A stretch of DNA of 25,015 bases from a virus, in the IMG/VR virus record IMGVR_UViG_3300034283_000603, positions 1 through 25,015 of that record. One strand, given 5' to 3'. Position 1 is the first letter of the stretch; every line of letters starts with the position of its first letter. Shown here piece by piece: positions 5,419 through 17,364 of the stretch. The translations under genes were made by a program, and so were the position numbers. The notes under the pieces were generated by a model that made no database searches, was not told the DNA's origin, and was given only the letters and a program-made list of their open reading frames with translations.

Positions 5419-6144
5419 ATGGCAGGACTCAAGCGTTCCAATGACCGTAAGGTCACCAATATGCCAACACCAAATGGCAAACGCTCAGCAATTGCTAACA
5501 CGTTCGGCTTACCTAGTGGTAAGCAGTACTCATGTCCCAACGCCACCAGTATATGCGAGAAGATTTGCTACGCTGGAAAGTTGGAGCGCATCTTCCCATC
5601 AGTAAGAGATACTCTCTTACACAACTGGAACCTGCTTAAAGATGCAGACCTAGAGACTATGTCCAATCTATTGGACGATATGGTTGCTTCATTCCGCTTG
5701 GATTGCAAAGCAAAGGATGCCGAACCTATCTTCCGCATCCATTGGGATGGGGATTTCTTCTCCGATACCTATGCCAAAGCATGGCGAGCAGTCATCATGC
5801 TCAACCCAGACATCAAGTTCTGGGTATATACACGAGTGCCATCCGCTGCAAGAATTCTGGATGGACTTGACAACCTGTCACTGTACTTTAGTACAGATGA
5901 TGAGAACAAATCCAACGCTGTTTATCTTCGCACCGAAGGTGTAAAGATAAAGGTTGCCTATCTATCTGACACCTTTGCTGATGCAAAGGACACGATGCTC
6001 AGTATGACTGGCAAGGTGGGTGCGAAATGCCCAGAGAATCTGGGTTCCATTCCACTAATCACTACCGAAGGTAGTGCTTGTGCAACATGCCGACTATGTA
6101 TCGATGGCAAGGCAGACATTCGCTTTGCTATCGCAAAGAAATAA
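5419..6144 (+). CDS. GP88-family (Gene product 88-like) cysteine protein
   Basis: A 241-residue protein resembling the 'gene product 88' family of actinobacteriophages, whose function is not established. The N-terminal part has a cysteine cluster SCPNATSICEKICYAG (C39, C46, C50). The middle has the family-like RIHWDGDFFSDTYAKAW (about 106-122) followed by FWVYTR. The C-terminus has a second cluster: C204, then CATCRLC (C221, C224, C227). Together these could bind zinc or an iron-sulfur cluster. The start has the conserved leader and AAAGGA upstream. It heads the second early group, behind hairpin/TATA copy 2. The family call is from memory of its motifs; an enzymatic role is not shown. Confidence 0.75.
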   Translation: MAGLKRSNDRKVTNMPTPNGKRSAIANTFGLPSGKQYSCPNATSICEKICYAGKLERIFPSVRDTLLHNWNLLKDADLETMSNLLDDMVASFRLDCKAKDAEPIFRIHWDGDFFSDTYAKAWRAVIMLNPDIKFWVYTRVPSAARILDGLDNLSLYFSTDDENKSNAVYLRTEGVKIKVAYLSDTFADAKDTMLSMTGKVGAKCPENLGSIPLITTEGSACATCRLCIDGKADIRFAIAKK

Positions 6145-7683: not shown

Positions 7684-8658
7684 ATGACAACAAGAACAGA
7701 ACGACGCCAAGCAATGAGCATTGCAGGCTATGAAGTAACAGCAACATCAGCACATGATGCAGCAGTACAAGCGGGACTCGACTGGCAAGTATCACTTGCT
7801 GATGTCGAAGCTTTAGCGTTAAGCAACGACGGCGTTAGCCGTCTGCCAGTACCCAATACATTAGCCACTGTCCGTACCGATAAGGATGGTAGTCAGGCTG
7901 TACTAGGTACAGTTGGTAGCCGATACAAAGTATTCCAGAATGATGAGATGTTCTCAGCGCTGGATGCACTAGTAGATTCTGGCGAAGCCAGGTATGCAGC
8001 AGCAGGTGCGTTACGTGGTGGTGCTCAAGTCTGGATGACCCTTGCACTTCCAAAGGAAGTGAAGATTGCTGGTGACCCACACTCTGCATACCTACTAGCA
8101 CGAACCTCCCATGATGGGTCATGCTCATTGGGTATCACACCAATCGTTAACCGATTGTTCTGCACCAATCAAATCTCTGGCATCTTCCGCAAGGATACAA
8201 AGTATTCCTTGCACCACACAACCAACGCTCAACTAAAGGTCAATGACCTTCGCCAAATGTTGGACATTATCTATACAGGTATCGAGACATACGAATCTGT
8301 GGCTGACAAGTTGTTGAATACAACTGTTAATGATGATGATGTAGCCAACATCTTTAAGAAGATGTGGTCACTGCCTAGCCATGTCGAATCAATCCCATAC
8401 TTCCGTCTCTCTCAAGGAGAGAAGCGTCAGTACAACAAAGCACTAGATGCACGTGGTGCTGCTATGAATATCTACCAAGGTGCAACTGGCACACAAGATA
8501 ACCTCAAAGGCACAGCCTTCGGTGCATTCCAAGCAATCGTTGAGTACATCGATTGGTTCAGCCACAAGTCAGGAGCAGTACGAGCAGAGCGTGTGGTGTC
8601 TGGTTCATTCGACCGCACCAAGAGCAAGGCTCTTGAACTAATCACGAAAGGAGTTTAA
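7684..8658 (+). CDS. DUF932 / phage-plasmid-like protein (TIGR03299-type)
   Basis: A 324-residue protein typical in length and pattern of the DUF932 family found in phages and plasmids. Visible features include an N-terminal segment with DWQVSLADVEAL and VPNTLATVRTD, then VLGTVGSRYKVFQNDEMFSALDALV, a central GGAQVWMTLALPKEV, a conserved-looking CSLGITPIVNRLFCTNQI, and a helical C-terminus (GTAFGAFQAIVEYIDW). The family has no settled biochemical role; links to DNA metabolism or recombination have been proposed but I cannot support them here. ATG at 7684 with AAAGGA. It is the largest gene of the early cluster and carries several perfect hairpins (8045, 8236, 8348 and 8619). Confidence 0.85.
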   Translation: MTTRTERRQAMSIAGYEVTATSAHDAAVQAGLDWQVSLADVEALALSNDGVSRLPVPNTLATVRTDKDGSQAVLGTVGSRYKVFQNDEMFSALDALVDSGEARYAAAGALRGGAQVWMTLALPKEVKIAGDPHSAYLLARTSHDGSCSLGITPIVNRLFCTNQISGIFRKDTKYSLHHTTNAQLKVNDLRQMLDIIYTGIETYESVADKLLNTTVNDDDVANIFKKMWSLPSHVESIPYFRLSQGEKRQYNKALDARGAAMNIYQGATGTQDNLKGTAFGAFQAIVEYIDWFSHKSGAVRAERVVSGSFDRTKSKALELITKGV

Positions 8659-11903: not shown

Positions 11904-12551
11904 CTAACTGTCTAATGCATTAATCAATGCGGTTAATGCTTGAGCTCCTTGGTCTACAATTATACTATTGATATCACTGTCAGGCGGTAGCGACACGCGC
12001 ATAGACTGTGGGATTGCATCCTGTAATCTGCGAGCTAAGTCCTGCCCTGGGTTAGAGCCATCTTCTTTAACGTCGTTATCTGTAGCAATTACTACTCTAC
12101 CTATACCATCAAAACAACGTGAGAAATAAGGCTTCCAAGCGTTAACGCCAGCGACAGCGACAGCAGGATGACCAGCAAGAGTTGCAGAAATAGCATCAAT
12201 CTCTCCTTCAACAATTAACACCTCCCTTACCGCATGAAGTATTGCGCCTACGTTATACAAATGATGCTTCTGACCAGTAGGTATCATGTACTTAGGGTCA
12301 CCATCATCAATGCGACGGAACTTAAACCCGACAACACCAGCCTCGGTAATGTATGGAATAGATAAGTGATGCTTGAGTCTGTCCTCGTGACCAGCAGCAG
12401 GCTCTACTACATAGCCCAACAGAAATTGTTGGGCGCCATCTAGGATGCCACGCTTCTCAAGGTATGCCTCAGCTGGTGAACCAGCTAATGAATCGTGATA
12501 TGTATGTGCTGCCTTTGTCCAGAGTTCAATGAGCTTGGGATTGGTTCTCAC
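11904..12551 (-). CDS. DNA primase, TOPRIM part (split primase)
   Basis: A 215-residue protein holding the catalytic TOPRIM domain of a DnaG-type primase: VLIVEGEIDAISATLAG (E115 as the general acid/metal residue), VAVAGVNAWKPYF, and VVIATDNDVKEDG (D158-D160). The N-terminal 100 residues (AYLEKRGILDGAQQFLLGYV, GFKFRR) look like the primase RNA-polymerase N-subdomain. The CHC2 zinc domain is absent and is instead encoded two genes upstream (13075-13407), with the Ntn-hydrolase gene in between. The start is GTG, overlapping the previous stop (GTGA) with GGAGAAGAA upstream. Primase and zinc parts presumably act together with the helicase. Confidence 0.9.
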   Translation of the reverse strand: MRTNPKLIELWTKAAHTYHDSLAGSPAEAYLEKRGILDGAQQFLLGYVVEPAAGHEDRLKHHLSIPYITEAGVVGFKFRRIDDGDPKYMIPTGQKHHLYNVGAILHAVREVLIVEGEIDAISATLAGHPAVAVAGVNAWKPYFSRCFDGIGRVVIATDNDVKEDGSNPGQDLARRLQDAIPQSMRVSLPPDSDINSIIVDQGAQALTALINALDS

Positions 12552-13078
12552 TTCTTCTCCTGTCTGTGTGTAATAAACGGAGGTGCAGTATACACATCAT
12601 TGCGAGCAGCAATCTGCATTGCTTGCTTCCATGTTGCGCCACCTGCTAATGCACCAAGAGCCCATGATGAACCAGACCCTACGCCATACAGACCATCGTC
12701 ACGTAGGTATACAGAATAGTTATCATCTACTTGGTAGATGGTTCCATTGATTGCTAATAAAAATTCAAACCCAGCATCCTCATCATCCTTGCTTGGGCTA
12801 TACCCAGACTCCTTGATGCAGTCCCTCATGCTAGGTACTACGGTTGTAATCATAAAGTGATACTCGTCTTTGATATTGGCTGGGATTGCTGGTGGTTTCC
12901 ACACGTGTTGGATTACATCACATGGTTGCACATCACCTGCACCTGCGACCAGCCACTTGCCACGTTTAGTTATCTTAGTAACTATCGGATGCGAGAACGG
13001 TCTACCACCTGCTGTGGTACGTGAGTCGGCTGCAAGAATGCAGCCGTTGTCTTGTTGGATACCAATAATAGTTGTCAC
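12548..13078 (-). CDS. HslV/proteasome-like Ntn-hydrolase
   Basis: A 176-residue protein with the HslV/20S beta-subunit pattern. After removal of the initiator residue it begins TTIIGIQQDNGCILAADSRT, so Thr1 would be the nucleophile, with Asp17 and Lys34 (VTKITKRG) at the expected places. A GVGSGSSWALGA segment (about 132-143) matches the serine/glycine turn of HslV (IGSGG-x-YA-x-A). Length (about 175) equals HslV. It starts with GTG. It lies between the two primase genes with 4-base overlaps at both sides. No HslU/ATPase partner is in the window. It could be a peptidase acting with host unfoldases or on phage proteins. Confidence 0.85.
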   Translation of the reverse strand: MTTIIGIQQDNGCILAADSRTTAGGRPFSHPIVTKITKRGKWLVAGAGDVQPCDVIQHVWKPPAIPANIKDEYHFMITTVVPSMRDCIKESGYSPSKDDEDAGFEFLLAINGTIYQVDDNYSVYLRDDGLYGVGSGSSWALGALAGGATWKQAMQIAARNDVYTAPPFITHRQEKK

Positions 13079-14618: not shown

Positions 14619-15003
14619 TCTTTAATTCTTTCATAACATCTAGTAAATTTTCTACCGTAATCAGATAGCCCTTGCTTCTGTTCGGTGGTATCTCGCAAGT
14701 AATCTCACGTCCATACTTCTGTATGGCGTGACGTACATGACCAGTTGGTACCATCAATACGCCATGTTCCAGAACGAAAGCCCAGTAACTAGCCTTCGTG
14801 ACAGACAGACCCGATGGTTCCCATGAATCAGAACGCTGATACCAGCATTCAACTTCTATGTATAGGTTGCCAGTAGCATGCCACTTGCGGTCACGTTTAA
14901 CCTCAATGGTCTTGCCACCAGTAAGTAACTCTTCTACTAGCTTCTCGCCTGACTGACCATAACTAAAATCTAAATCAAATGAAGATAGATTACTCATTGC
15001 CAT
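14611..15003 (-). CDS. PD-(D/E)XK nuclease-like protein
   Basis: A 130-residue protein: GEKLVEELLTGGKTIEVKRD (E20, E34, K36) and GNLYIEVECW (E50) give the core of a PD-(D/E)XK fold, followed by SGLSVTKASYWAFVLEHGVL and a C-terminal helix. A role as a DNA endonuclease, perhaps against host DNA or branched DNA, is likely. The start overlaps the helicase stop by 10 bases; an alternative ATG is two codons inside. It is distinct in sequence from the nuclease at 13827-14180. Confidence 0.8.
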   Translation of the reverse strand: MAMSNLSSFDLDFSYGQSGEKLVEELLTGGKTIEVKRDRKWHATGNLYIEVECWYQRSDSWEPSGLSVTKASYWAFVLEHGVLMVPTGHVRHAIQKYGREITCEIPPNRSKGYLITVENLLDVMKELKNE

Positions 15004-15827
15004 TGACTCATTGTTCTGGCGCGGAACAAATCAGCTGGTGAATTATAGAGAACCATCTTGCTTGCCTCTGCTGCTAGAGATACATAGCTCTCTGCGGTTG
15101 GGTCTGCCTTGCCATGTCGGTTCTTAACAACGGCAACACGATAACTATTAGAAGCACTATCCAGAGCCACCGAAAGGACCAACTCTGGTAGTGCTGCTAC
15201 CTTACCCATCAAAGCTTTACGTGGTGCTGGGTAGTTTGGCTTAGACATCTTTTCATTCTCGGATACGTGGTGTAGGACGATGAAAGCCGATTCATATTCA
15301 CGTGCCATGTAGTGAAACGCTGACATGGCATCACGTAGTGCAGTCCACTCGTTATCGCTAGCGGACACTACGTTCATTAAGTTATCTACATATACAGCAG
15401 CAGGAGCCGAACCATGTAATTCAATCCACGCTTCTATCTCCTCTTCAATATCTTGAAGAGAAGGTGCTGGGTCGAACGCGAACCTTACATGGTTGGCACC
15501 TTCTGCTAGTGCATCCTCAAGGAGAACACTTGCTTCGGTATCCATCAGTCTTTCAACATCAGCAACATCTTTATTCATAATAATTGCACCAGCGCGAGTA
15601 GCGATGGTACGTGAATCAGAGTCTGCTGATATGTACAAAGATGGAACCTTAGAAGTAACGGCGTACCATAATGCAAGTAGTGTCTTGCCTCCGCCTGGTT
15701 GTGCAGCAATCAAATGCAATTGCGCTTGACGGAACACAACCTGACTGGCGGTGAGTTGAGGCAAGATTTCTGGTAGTTGATGACCAGCTGGTGACTCGAC
15801 ACCCACTACTTGCAATAGGCTACGCAT
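14994..15827 (-). CDS. DnaB-like / RecA-fold replicative helicase
   Basis: A 277-residue RecA-fold ATPase. Walker A is AAQPGGGKTL (41-50, K48), Walker B AAVYVDNLMN (D148), and the sensor/His block FIVLHHVSE (182-190) resembles DnaB helicases and RadA/RecA-like proteins. The usual N-terminal DnaB primase-interaction domain is absent, so this is the ATPase core only, as in many phages of actinobacteria. It should unwind DNA at the fork with the split primase downstream. The ATG overlaps the previous stop (TAATG). A perfect 8-bp hairpin lies in the gene at 15444-15463. Confidence 0.85.
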   Translation of the reverse strand: MRSLLQVVGVESPAGHQLPEILPQLTASQVVFRQAQLHLIAAQPGGGKTLLALWYAVTSKVPSLYISADSDSRTIATRAGAIIMNKDVADVERLMDTEASVLLEDALAEGANHVRFAFDPAPSLQDIEEEIEAWIELHGSAPAAVYVDNLMNVVSASDNEWTALRDAMSAFHYMAREYESAFIVLHHVSENEKMSKPNYPAPRKALMGKVAALPELVLSVALDSASNSYRVAVVKNRHGKADPTAESYVSLAAEASKMVLYNSPADLFRARTMSQWQ

Positions 15828-16288
15828 TACTTAGTCCAGATTGTTTCTGCTTCTACAGCACCTGGTGAGAAAGGCTTCGGTCCCTTGGCTGGGTCAAACC
15901 AACCAACATAAGCCTTGCCTGCTTTTGATACGCCCTTCTTCTTGGCGTACTTGCCACGTCCGTCTGGTAGGTCTGGCGCATCTGGATGTCCATATGTCCA
16001 CTCGTTACCATACTTGTCTTTGACAACCTCAATTGCTTGAGGTGTTGTAGATACAGGCTGTGGGTTTAAACCAGCTGCCTGTAGCCCAGCGATTGCTTGC
16101 TCCATGTTAGGTGCATATGCTCCGCCGTTAGTGCGGTTAAGTAGCATAGCTTGCAGACCTTGTGCATCAGTGATTGCCTCGACTGCTGCGGTTAGGTTTG
16201 CTTTGAATTCAGAAATGCTGTTACCTCGAACGGTAAACAAATCATTTCCGTTTAGCTTTCCTGTAAACGAGAACATAGATTCAGTCAT
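15827..16288 (-). CDS. Conserved unknown, between nuclease and helicase
   Basis: A 153-residue protein. The N-terminal half (MFSFTGKLNGNDLFTVRGNS, FKANLTAAVEAI) has a beta-beta-beta-helix pattern. A linker rich in Q, P and T leads to a C-terminal segment DGRGKYAKKKGVSKAGKAYV-GWFDPAKG. This C-terminal layout recalls proteins in phages of actinobacteria whose C-terminus is a C4 zinc motif with 'skkGk.y.gw'; here the cysteines are missing. Placed between the RecB-like nuclease and the helicase, it may be a single-strand-DNA-binding or recombination accessory, but that is inference. It directly abuts the nuclease stop. Confidence 0.7.
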   Translation of the reverse strand: MTESMFSFTGKLNGNDLFTVRGNSISEFKANLTAAVEAITDAQGLQAMLLNRTNGGAYAPNMEQAIAGLQAAGLNPQPVSTTPQAIEVVKDKYGNEWTYGHPDAPDLPDGRGKYAKKKGVSKAGKAYVGWFDPAKGPKPFSPGAVEAETIWTK

Positions 16289-16957
16289 CTACTTTCTCTC
16301 CTTTTCTTTCCCAGTTGTTGGAAGTTGTAGCGGGAAATCTTTACTGCCCCATGCTGGACACTTCTCGACGAACGAACACATCTTGCAATTCTCACCAACA
16401 AATGTTGGGAAGTAACCTTGCAATACTGAGTGGTTCATTGAGGCAAACGCATGCTCATAGTATTCAATACTTAGGTGGGTTAAGTCAATCAAATCGCCAA
16501 GCTCGCCTTGGCGTGTCATAAAGAATGCGCCCCACTTGGGACGGATGCCATAAATCTTTTCAATACCACTGGCATATAAGCCATTCTGGATTACACCGAA
16601 TGGCGTCCTGGAACCTGTCTTGTAGTCAACGATAACCAAGTCTTCCCCTACTTGATATACCGCGTCGATAATAAATCTTACAGGTGTGCCTCCGAAATGC
16701 ACATCTGCAGACCACTCGATTCCAGGACGACCATCAGGCATAGTAGCGATTTGCCAACCAGATTGCAACATCCATTTCTGGTATGCCTCTACCTGCTTGA
16801 GCCCATCGCTCTGCCAAAAAGCTAAGTCCTCGCCATCTGGACGAGCAGCGGTCTTGCGACCAGCTGTCTTCCACTCTGTCGATGGGATTCCTGTTTGCTC
16901 TTCGACACTTCTAACTTCGTCATTAAAAACCTCAAGCCACTTCTCAGTTAAACTCAT
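16289..16957 (-). CDS. RecB/Cas4-like nuclease, C-terminal part (split)
   Basis: A 222-residue protein carrying the catalytic core of a RecB/Cas4-type PD-(D/E)XK exonuclease: FIIDAVY (D98), LVIVDYKTGSRTP (D111, K113), then QNGLYA (Q124, Y128). Its C-terminus CKMCSFVEKCPAWG (C191, C194, C200) is the CxxC-x5-C half of an iron-sulfur cluster. The family's N-terminal LTTWQSCP...GSAVH block, including the first cluster cysteine and the motif histidine, is missing here. It is encoded separately at 17155-17364. GAGGAAG lies before the ATG; the start overlaps the zinc-ribbon gene by 14 bases. The frame has a stop at 16985-16987, so it cannot extend upstream. Confidence 0.88.
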   Translation of the reverse strand: MSLTEKWLEVFNDEVRSVEEQTGIPSTEWKTAGRKTAARPDGEDLAFWQSDGLKQVEAYQKWMLQSGWQIATMPDGRPGIEWSADVHFGGTPVRFIIDAVYQVGEDLVIVDYKTGSRTPFGVIQNGLYASGIEKIYGIRPKWGAFFMTRQGELGDLIDLTHLSIEYYEHAFASMNHSVLQGYFPTFVGENCKMCSFVEKCPAWGSKDFPLQLPTTGKEKERK

Positions 16958-17192
16958 CGTCTTCTTCCTCTGGTTGTTCTGGTTTCACGTAGTCTGGATG
17001 GTCTACTGGTGTGGGTGTTGTCATAGGTGAGCCACATTGGGCGCAGAAAGAATCGGTGAACCACATAACCAAGTCATAGTCTTGGAAGATGGCTCTGATT
17101 ATTTGAATGTTTGAACCGCAGTTCACACATTCATTGCTGGGGATTCCCCGCTGGTCAATTAGATTGCTGTTGTTGCTGCTTGTAGAACTCAT
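16944..17192 (-). CDS. Small zinc-ribbon protein inserted between nuclease parts
   Basis: An 82-residue protein. The CVNC (22-25) and CAQC (50-53) pairs form a zinc ribbon around IIRAIFQDYDLVMWFTDSF, a pattern of small proteins in phages of actinobacteria. An acidic tail (QPEEEDDEFN) follows. It overlaps the N-terminal nuclease part by 38 bases and the C-terminal part by 14 bases, each in a different frame. The ATG has no clear ribosome site, so it is probably coupled. A job as partner of the split nuclease is suggested by position only. Confidence 0.8.
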   Translation of the reverse strand: MSSTSSNNSNLIDQRGIPSNECVNCGSNIQIIRAIFQDYDLVMWFTDSFCAQCGSPMTTPTPVDHPDYVKPEQPEEEDDEFN

Positions 17193-17364
17193 GGTTCAAC
17201 CATTCCAACATAGAGTGAACAGCTGAACCAGCTGCTAGATATACTGCGGGTTTCTCTGGTACCATGGCAACCTTACTCAAGTAATATTTCTGAGGGCAGG
17301 ATTGCCAGGTTGTTAGCTGACTGTAAGACCGATGCGGAGGAAGTTTATTCATACCGTAAATCAT
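17155..17364 (-). CDS. RecB/Cas4-like nuclease, N-terminal part (split)
   Basis: A 69-residue protein equal to the N-terminal block of a RecB/Cas4-type nuclease: SYSQLTTWQSCPQKYYLSKV (C23, first iron-sulfur ligand) and VYLAAGSAVHSMLEWL (H50, motif I). It ends in KQQQQQSN, just where the rest of the family would continue into the segment now at the start of the gene at 16289-16957. Joining the two gives about 290 residues, the usual length. It is the first gene of the leftward replication operon; AAAGGA lies 10 bases before the ATG at 17364. Confidence 0.85.
   Translation of the reverse strand: MIYGMNKLPPHRSYSQLTTWQSCPQKYYLSKVAMVPEKPAVYLAAGSAVHSMLEWLNHEFYKQQQQQSN

Follow-up and report, generated by a model that had tools for sequence, protein, structure and literature searches.

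On the evidence of profile matches and conserved residues, two genes on the minus strand of the window (the whole stretch of viral DNA analysed, 25,015 nucleotides) encode the two halves of a single member of the RecB/Cas4-type PD-(D/E)XK nuclease family. The two products, termed N and C, most likely assemble after translation into a two-chain exonuclease with a predicted iron-sulfur cluster spanning both chains, a reading to which we assign a probability of roughly 0.83. The junction between the halves is occupied by a third ORF, termed Z. The three genes share the minus strand and use a different frame each; Z overlaps N by 38 nt (17155-17192) and C by 14 nt (16944-16957). The features of the locus and its downstream neighbors are as follows.

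17155-17364, minus strand: N, 69 residues, the N-terminal exonuclease half (PF12705 positions 3-51; phrog_69, E 1.3e-11; phrog_1870 positions 11-69)
16944-17192, minus strand: Z, predicted zinc ribbon of 82 residues with CVNC...CAQC and an acidic tail (no variation in either CxxC pair across 16 rows)
16289-16957, minus strand: C, 222 residues, the C-terminal exonuclease half (PF12705 positions 87-247; phrog_1870 positions 74-304, E 1.4e-67)
16985-16987, minus strand: TGA stop closing the C frame upstream of the C start (read from the sequence, TCA on the plus strand, and from the open-frame limits in relatives)
17296-17298, minus strand: codon of C23, the predicted fourth cluster cysteine, in chain N (from the translation)
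16358-16387, minus strand: codons of C191, C194, and C200, three predicted cluster cysteines, in chain C (from the translation)
16619-16666, minus strand: codons of D98 to K113, the catalytic D...DxK, in chain C (from the translation)
15827-16288, minus strand: ORF of 153 residues, the next gene downstream of C (without a PHROG or Pfam match)
14994-15827, minus strand: DnaB-like helicase, belonging to the same replication module as the nuclease (phrog_243, E 3.8e-75)

The sequence and its translations agree with the original prediction in the coordinates, lengths, frames, and motifs of the three ORFs, including the placement of an 82-residue zinc-ribbon ORF between the halves in a third frame. 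The proposed division of residues was likewise found: N carries C23 and H50 (within GSAVH), and C carries D98, D111, K113, and the series C191-x2-C194-x5-C200. In addition, G46 and E54 are in N, and Q124 and Y128 are in C. The stop codon at 16985-16987 is present, and no single frame shift accounts for the split. A second in-frame ATG of N, at 17352, corresponds to the start common to many relatives.

Both halves exceed the Pfam gathering score of 22 bits for PDDEXK_1 (PF12705, 247 positions), N with 30.9 and C with 26.9 bits. Since each passes this score separately and on consecutive parts of the profile, the relation between N and C is more than a chance resemblance. The exonuclease profile phrog_1870 (313 positions) is tiled in the same manner, as is, below its cut-off, the Cas4 profile TIGR00372 (180 positions; N 3-44, C 71-179); the 65-bit equivalog cut-off of the latter for CRISPR Cas4 was missed by both C (32.5 bits) and N (16.7 bits). 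Profile tiling and the retained residues support the earlier proposal that a single nuclease fold and a single predicted cluster are distributed over two intact chains.

Relatives of the window type were collected in three IMG/VR scans, each represented by its best 80 loci (of 172, 167, and 135 relatives, respectively), giving 232 loci, some of which stem from the same contig. Among these, 226 of the 232 show N, Z, and C in the same order and relative frames (+1, +2), comprising 99 distinct sequences; in the other six, one or two of the parts are missing and the match reaches the contig end. The single polypeptide that is usual for the family, although not a strict requirement of it, is absent, with two ORFs in 226/226 complete loci among the matches listed. 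The catalytic H, D, D-x-K, and Q-x3-Y, although spread over two chains, are each present in 98 to 99 of the 99 distinct sequences listed. At the level of single residues, C23 is found in 97, D98 and D111 in 98, and G46, H50, E54, K113, Q124, Y128, C191, C194, and C200 in all 99 of them; the four predicted cluster cysteine positions are hence present and kept. The overlap of N and Z ranges from 11 to 41 nt, and TGA, TAA, and TAG all serve as stop codons. Median dN/dS, calculated after leaving out pairs beyond a synonymous-divergence window and sequences without the anchor motif, was 0.05 for N (96 sequences, 452 pairs), 0.10 for Z (96 sequences, 340 pairs), and 0.11 for C (88 sequences, 697 pairs). 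Purifying selection thus acts on each of the three genes, most strongly on N. This selection and the near-invariant site residues uphold the view that neither half is decayed.

A survey of relatives for whole and split versions, as suggested with the original prediction, yielded both one-piece actinophage loci and split groups. The cultured actinophages PurpleHaze, JSwag, Rhodalysa, Geostin, Success, SWU2, and PAC5 possess the enzyme as one CDS of 264 to 313 residues. The window and the cultured actinophages have in common that the exonuclease precedes a DnaB-like helicase, and in PAC5, as in the window, the CHC2 and TOPRIM primase genes come next. A scan with three cultured-phage queries, from which the best 80 of 112 relatives were taken (L318-L397), showed N and C in a single ORF in 80/80 and Z in 0/80 of these loci, including flanks of up to 3 kb. 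When the same profiles were applied to the seven cultured loci, both halves scored in one ORF in five; for Geostin and Success one half scored and the other fell below the threshold. Two further observations concern such single-chain relatives. The short "exonuclease" family phrog_31737 (146 positions) matches one-piece enzymes in their N-terminal part only, and further broken or split copies may be among its members. In Cutibacterium phage PAVL21 (MW161465.1, 14555-17518; L635), hypothetical genes are annotated on the strand opposite to the exonuclease homology; these "three hypothetical proteins" were considered as a possible split and set aside as uninformative, being annotated on the other strand.

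AlphaFold2 was used to model the one-piece relative L342, with a mean pLDDT of 91.2. Compared with solved structures by Foldseek and VIA-align, the model resembles ACE1 of the Cas4 family (E 5e-9, VIA-align Z score 16.7), and VIA-align Z scores were 17.2 for AdnA, 15.1 for AddB, 13.8 for Dna2, and 13.1 for Cas4. In the model, a helix formed by residues 34 to 49 bears the GxxxH...E motif and is followed by a helix comprising residues 56 to 77; the break falls into the loop 50 to 55, that is, it appears to be placed in a flexible six-residue loop between two helices of the normal one-piece enzyme. The first methionine of C aligns with the column of M54 of L342, where 22 of 28 one-piece rows have Met, and the start of C is therefore likely to be a methionine common in the one-piece enzyme, in an alignment that is gappy at this place. 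Modelled alone, C reached a mean pLDDT of 82.0, with the core kept and confident over most of its length. The cysteine segment had pLDDT values of 63 to 65 in this model versus 82 to 94 in the one-piece model, which is compatible with, and gives a faint hint of, a cluster that needs N.

The split also exists without Z. The nearest deposited relatives of the window (terminase 46%, helicase 39%) are OX376640.1 (LanE43-AprE7, phage E7; L398) and OX376641.1 (LanE43-AprF5, phage F5; L399), both of which are described as having been grown on a "Ca. Planktophila" isolate, host LanE-43 (PMC10202952). The two records, which represent the first cultured Nanopelagicales phages, are unannotated and filed as "Caudovirales sp. 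ct2KA10." In E7, N (61 residues, 2213-2398) and C (202 residues, 2382-2990) overlap directly in different frames without Z, and F5 shows the same arrangement. Scans with C proteins of the E7 type returned 305 and 283 relatives, of which the best 80 each were taken. Among the 157 loci L398-L554, the halves are directly split in 142, separated by an insert in 10, and fused in 1; in the remaining 4, N is missing at the edge of a contig. A further 80 loci of this type comprise 71 direct splits, 7 with an insert, 1 fused, and 1 without N at an edge; loci overlap between the scans, and the fused locus is on the same contig as the earlier one. Altogether, 112 distinct splits of the E7 type (107 direct, 5 with inserts) were present among the matches listed, and all 12 checked positions are conserved in 112/112 of them. 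The direct N/C overlap measures 8 to 20 nt, with TAA or TGA as the stop codon.

In some of these loci the halves are separated by inserts of approximately 180 to 920 nt. One consists of an ORF of about 109 residues, termed X (L464, 2664-3008; L470, 2658-3002; L484, 2679-3005; also L485), for which no Pfam match was obtained. In L436 (2039-3014) and five more loci, X is accompanied by Y, an ORF of 222 residues, and in L579 and L580 (1683-1880) the halves are separated by roughly 200 nt with no clear ORF on the plus strand. A search of the E7-type loci with the Z profile gave two chance-level rows only, neither inside a junction insert. The fused form is found on a singleton contig (L551, 2191-2961, identical to L555), in which N and C form one ORF and the loop is also removed. 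It was considered as the ancestral one-piece state, which is unlikely, because L556 is 99% identical and yet split, the junction of L551 being 16 nt shorter. The fusion may be a real variant or an error; the fused form may be viable, which would speak against the two-chain reading.

The existence of the E7/F5 group bears on the role of Z, which had been put forward as a possible third piece of the enzyme. A need for Z was not supported: as the same split occurs there without Z, two chains are evidently enough in that group. The description of a nuclease split around a zinc-ribbon gene suits the position of Z between the halves in the window type, and is less apt if Z is taken as the cause of the split. 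In a search of 50,697 phage records, Z had no match at E<=1. Its matches in Pfam, PHROGs, and NCBIfam were weak or below threshold and for the most part zinc ribbons, and a comparison with solved structures gave only chance-level rows. The nearest named matches, all of them sub-threshold zinc ribbons, include Lar-type restriction alleviation proteins (16.8 bits versus a cut-off of 39.6) and YhfH. A homing endonuclease was also considered and rejected, as Pfam, PHROGs, and NCBIfam gave only a chance-level PHROG row (E 0.4). Judged by its distribution, Z probably came later, as a passenger or accessory specific to one clade, rather than being a required third piece; its role in the window clade may be that of a subunit, of a regulator, or of a mere passenger using the same coupled translation. 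A variant compatible with the two-chain explanation, in which Z is an obligate third subunit of a three-chain complex in the window clade, is rather doubtful. It would suit the purifying selection on Z, its overlaps with both genes, and its occurrence: among the matches listed, Z is always accompanied by C, and also by N if the contig extends far enough. Such co-occurrence by itself would suit a passenger, however, and the homologous nuclease of the E7/F5 type manages without Z, while other, unrelated ORFs fill the same junction elsewhere.

Two explanations that dispense with a two-chain assembly fare worse. It is improbable that C acts as a nuclease on its own, or is a dead one, and that N serves a separate purpose: C does carry the D...DxK core and is predicted to fold confidently by itself over most of its length, but N retains exactly the residues it contributes to the one-piece enzyme (C23, G46, H50, and E54) and shows the strongest constraint among the three genes, and the cysteine segment of C is modelled poorly without N. 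Slightly less probable still is programmed +1 frameshifting into a single chain, once in the E7 type and twice in the window type. The regularity of the frames would be in keeping with it, the steps being +1 and +1 in 226/226 complete window-type loci and +1 in 71/71 direct E7-type splits of one set, in each case among the matches listed. Against it, the overlaps contain no conserved slippery run and vary in length and in stop codon, Z and C retain their own start codons, and two E7-type loci, both with an insert, have N and C at +2; moreover, the inserts between N and C cannot be bridged by a single shift. As to intervening elements, no Rfam match at the gathering score was obtained within the window, and because the three ORF frames differ there is no in-frame intein. 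Sequencing or assembly error or gene decay, conceivable for one contig alone, is of negligible probability and is refuted at the family level by the distinct sequences among the matches listed (99 of the window type, 112 of the E7 type), two cultured isolates, and strong purifying selection.

The order of events was addressed with a tree of 24 split and 23 one-piece rows, in which N and C of the split rows were concatenated by script. The split rows comprised 13 of the Z type and 11 of the E7 type, including inserts and the fusion; Geostin was omitted owing to its very long branch. The best tree separates all 24 split rows from the 23 one-piece rows with a support of 94/85, which is not starred, and with long branches between the groups; the Z type forms one clade with a support of 100/97. 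A single fission before the Z and E7 types diverged is favored by this topology, and it would mean that Z arrived after the fission. Given the Z-free split group, "fission first, Z later" is the simpler order, of which the tree is no proof.

Returning to the two-chain reading, N and C would be produced as separate chains from overlapping genes, probably by coupled translation (overlaps of 8 to 41 nt); a point against such coupling is that Z and C are preceded by ribosome-binding signals of no more than moderate strength. The chains would then bind through the helices that are packed together in one-piece relatives, and C23 of N would complete the predicted [4Fe-4S] cluster with C191, C194, and C200 of C. 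The assembled enzyme would resect DNA ends within the replication and recombination module of the phage, alongside its helicase and resolvase. In the window clade, Z would have come to occupy the junction as an accessory subunit or a passenger, the same split being found with Z in the junction, with a different insert there, and with the halves directly next to each other. A tentative extension, which we consider possible and no better than unlikely, is an obligate two-chain enzyme of freshwater actinophages that acquires its cluster and active site only once the chains have assembled, and whose gene junction has become a place where small regulatory subunits dock (Z in one clade; X, alone or with Y, in others). 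If true, this would be a nuclease whose activity is set by its assembly partners.

The remaining content of the window gives some indication of its host. WhiB, sigma-factor, and glycosyltransferase genes are present, as are also named for E7 and F5 (PMC10202952). From sequence kinship with these two phages, we infer a freshwater origin of the contigs, and the host is presumably actinobacterial, perhaps belonging to the Nanopelagicales; two scans of 84,980 species genomes for the host returned no relative. Several other genes deserve mention. Between the CHC2 and TOPRIM primase genes lies a proteasome-beta-like (Ntn-hydrolase) ORF (12548-13078, minus strand) that stays below the family cut-offs (PF00227, 20.7 versus 22.4 bits; TIGR03634, E 1.6e-6). 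Six adjacent ORFs of 171 to 201 residues (20822-24130, minus strand) are alike by eye, with recurring starts and YGI endings, as if by tandem duplication; the two of them that were checked had no Pfam match. On the plus strand, a GP88 family protein (5419-6144; PF17338, E 1e-56) and a DUF932 protein (7684-8658; E 1e-38) are encoded.

If assembled as read here, the enzyme would be an Fe-S nuclease made from two chains and kept across a large natural set of phages, two cultured isolates of which allow direct testing. It raises the questions of how a cluster is built over a chain break and why phages retain the break, and for annotation it means that either gene taken singly is half the exonuclease. 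One-piece forms, two-piece forms, and two-piece forms with Z, X, or X and Y provide a natural series for the study of gene fission.

Among known systems, the closest are the exonucleases of cultured actinophages (PurpleHaze gp76, Rhodalysa gp56, Pahexavirus PAC5 gp37), which share with N and C the family profiles, the catalytic and cysteine positions, and the place before a DnaB-like helicase; they are single chains of 264 to 313 residues, whereas the window has two chains with Z in the junction. The E7/F5 nuclease is broken at the same place as that of the window, and its residues are distributed over two overlapping genes in the same way, but its halves overlap directly without Z. ACE1, AdnA, AddB, Dna2, and CRISPR Cas4, whose solved structures have a fold like that predicted for the one-piece relative, carry the nuclease domain on a single chain, unlike N and C. 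In the open-access literature, to the extent that its texts could be searched, no report of a split RecB/Cas4-type nuclease was found; gene splitting is known for other phage enzymes, and what appears new here is its occurrence in this type of nuclease. Phage "genes in pieces" are described for NrdA of Aeh1 around mobE, the T4 topoisomerase around mobA, and the polymerase 43A/43B of Aeromonas phage 25, the junction genes being homing endonucleases or spacer, and the split NrdA and the split polymerase are reported to be active (PMC2988022). N and C conform to this pattern in that two conserved chains have one-piece orthologues elsewhere, and Z departs from it in not being recognizable as a homing endonuclease. 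As far as that account describes them, these systems are likewise DNA-metabolism enzymes in two reassembling chains, sometimes with a junction gene; the present case concerns a different enzyme, with a junction ORF that lacks an endonuclease match and a predicted Fe-S cluster that would have to form across the chains.
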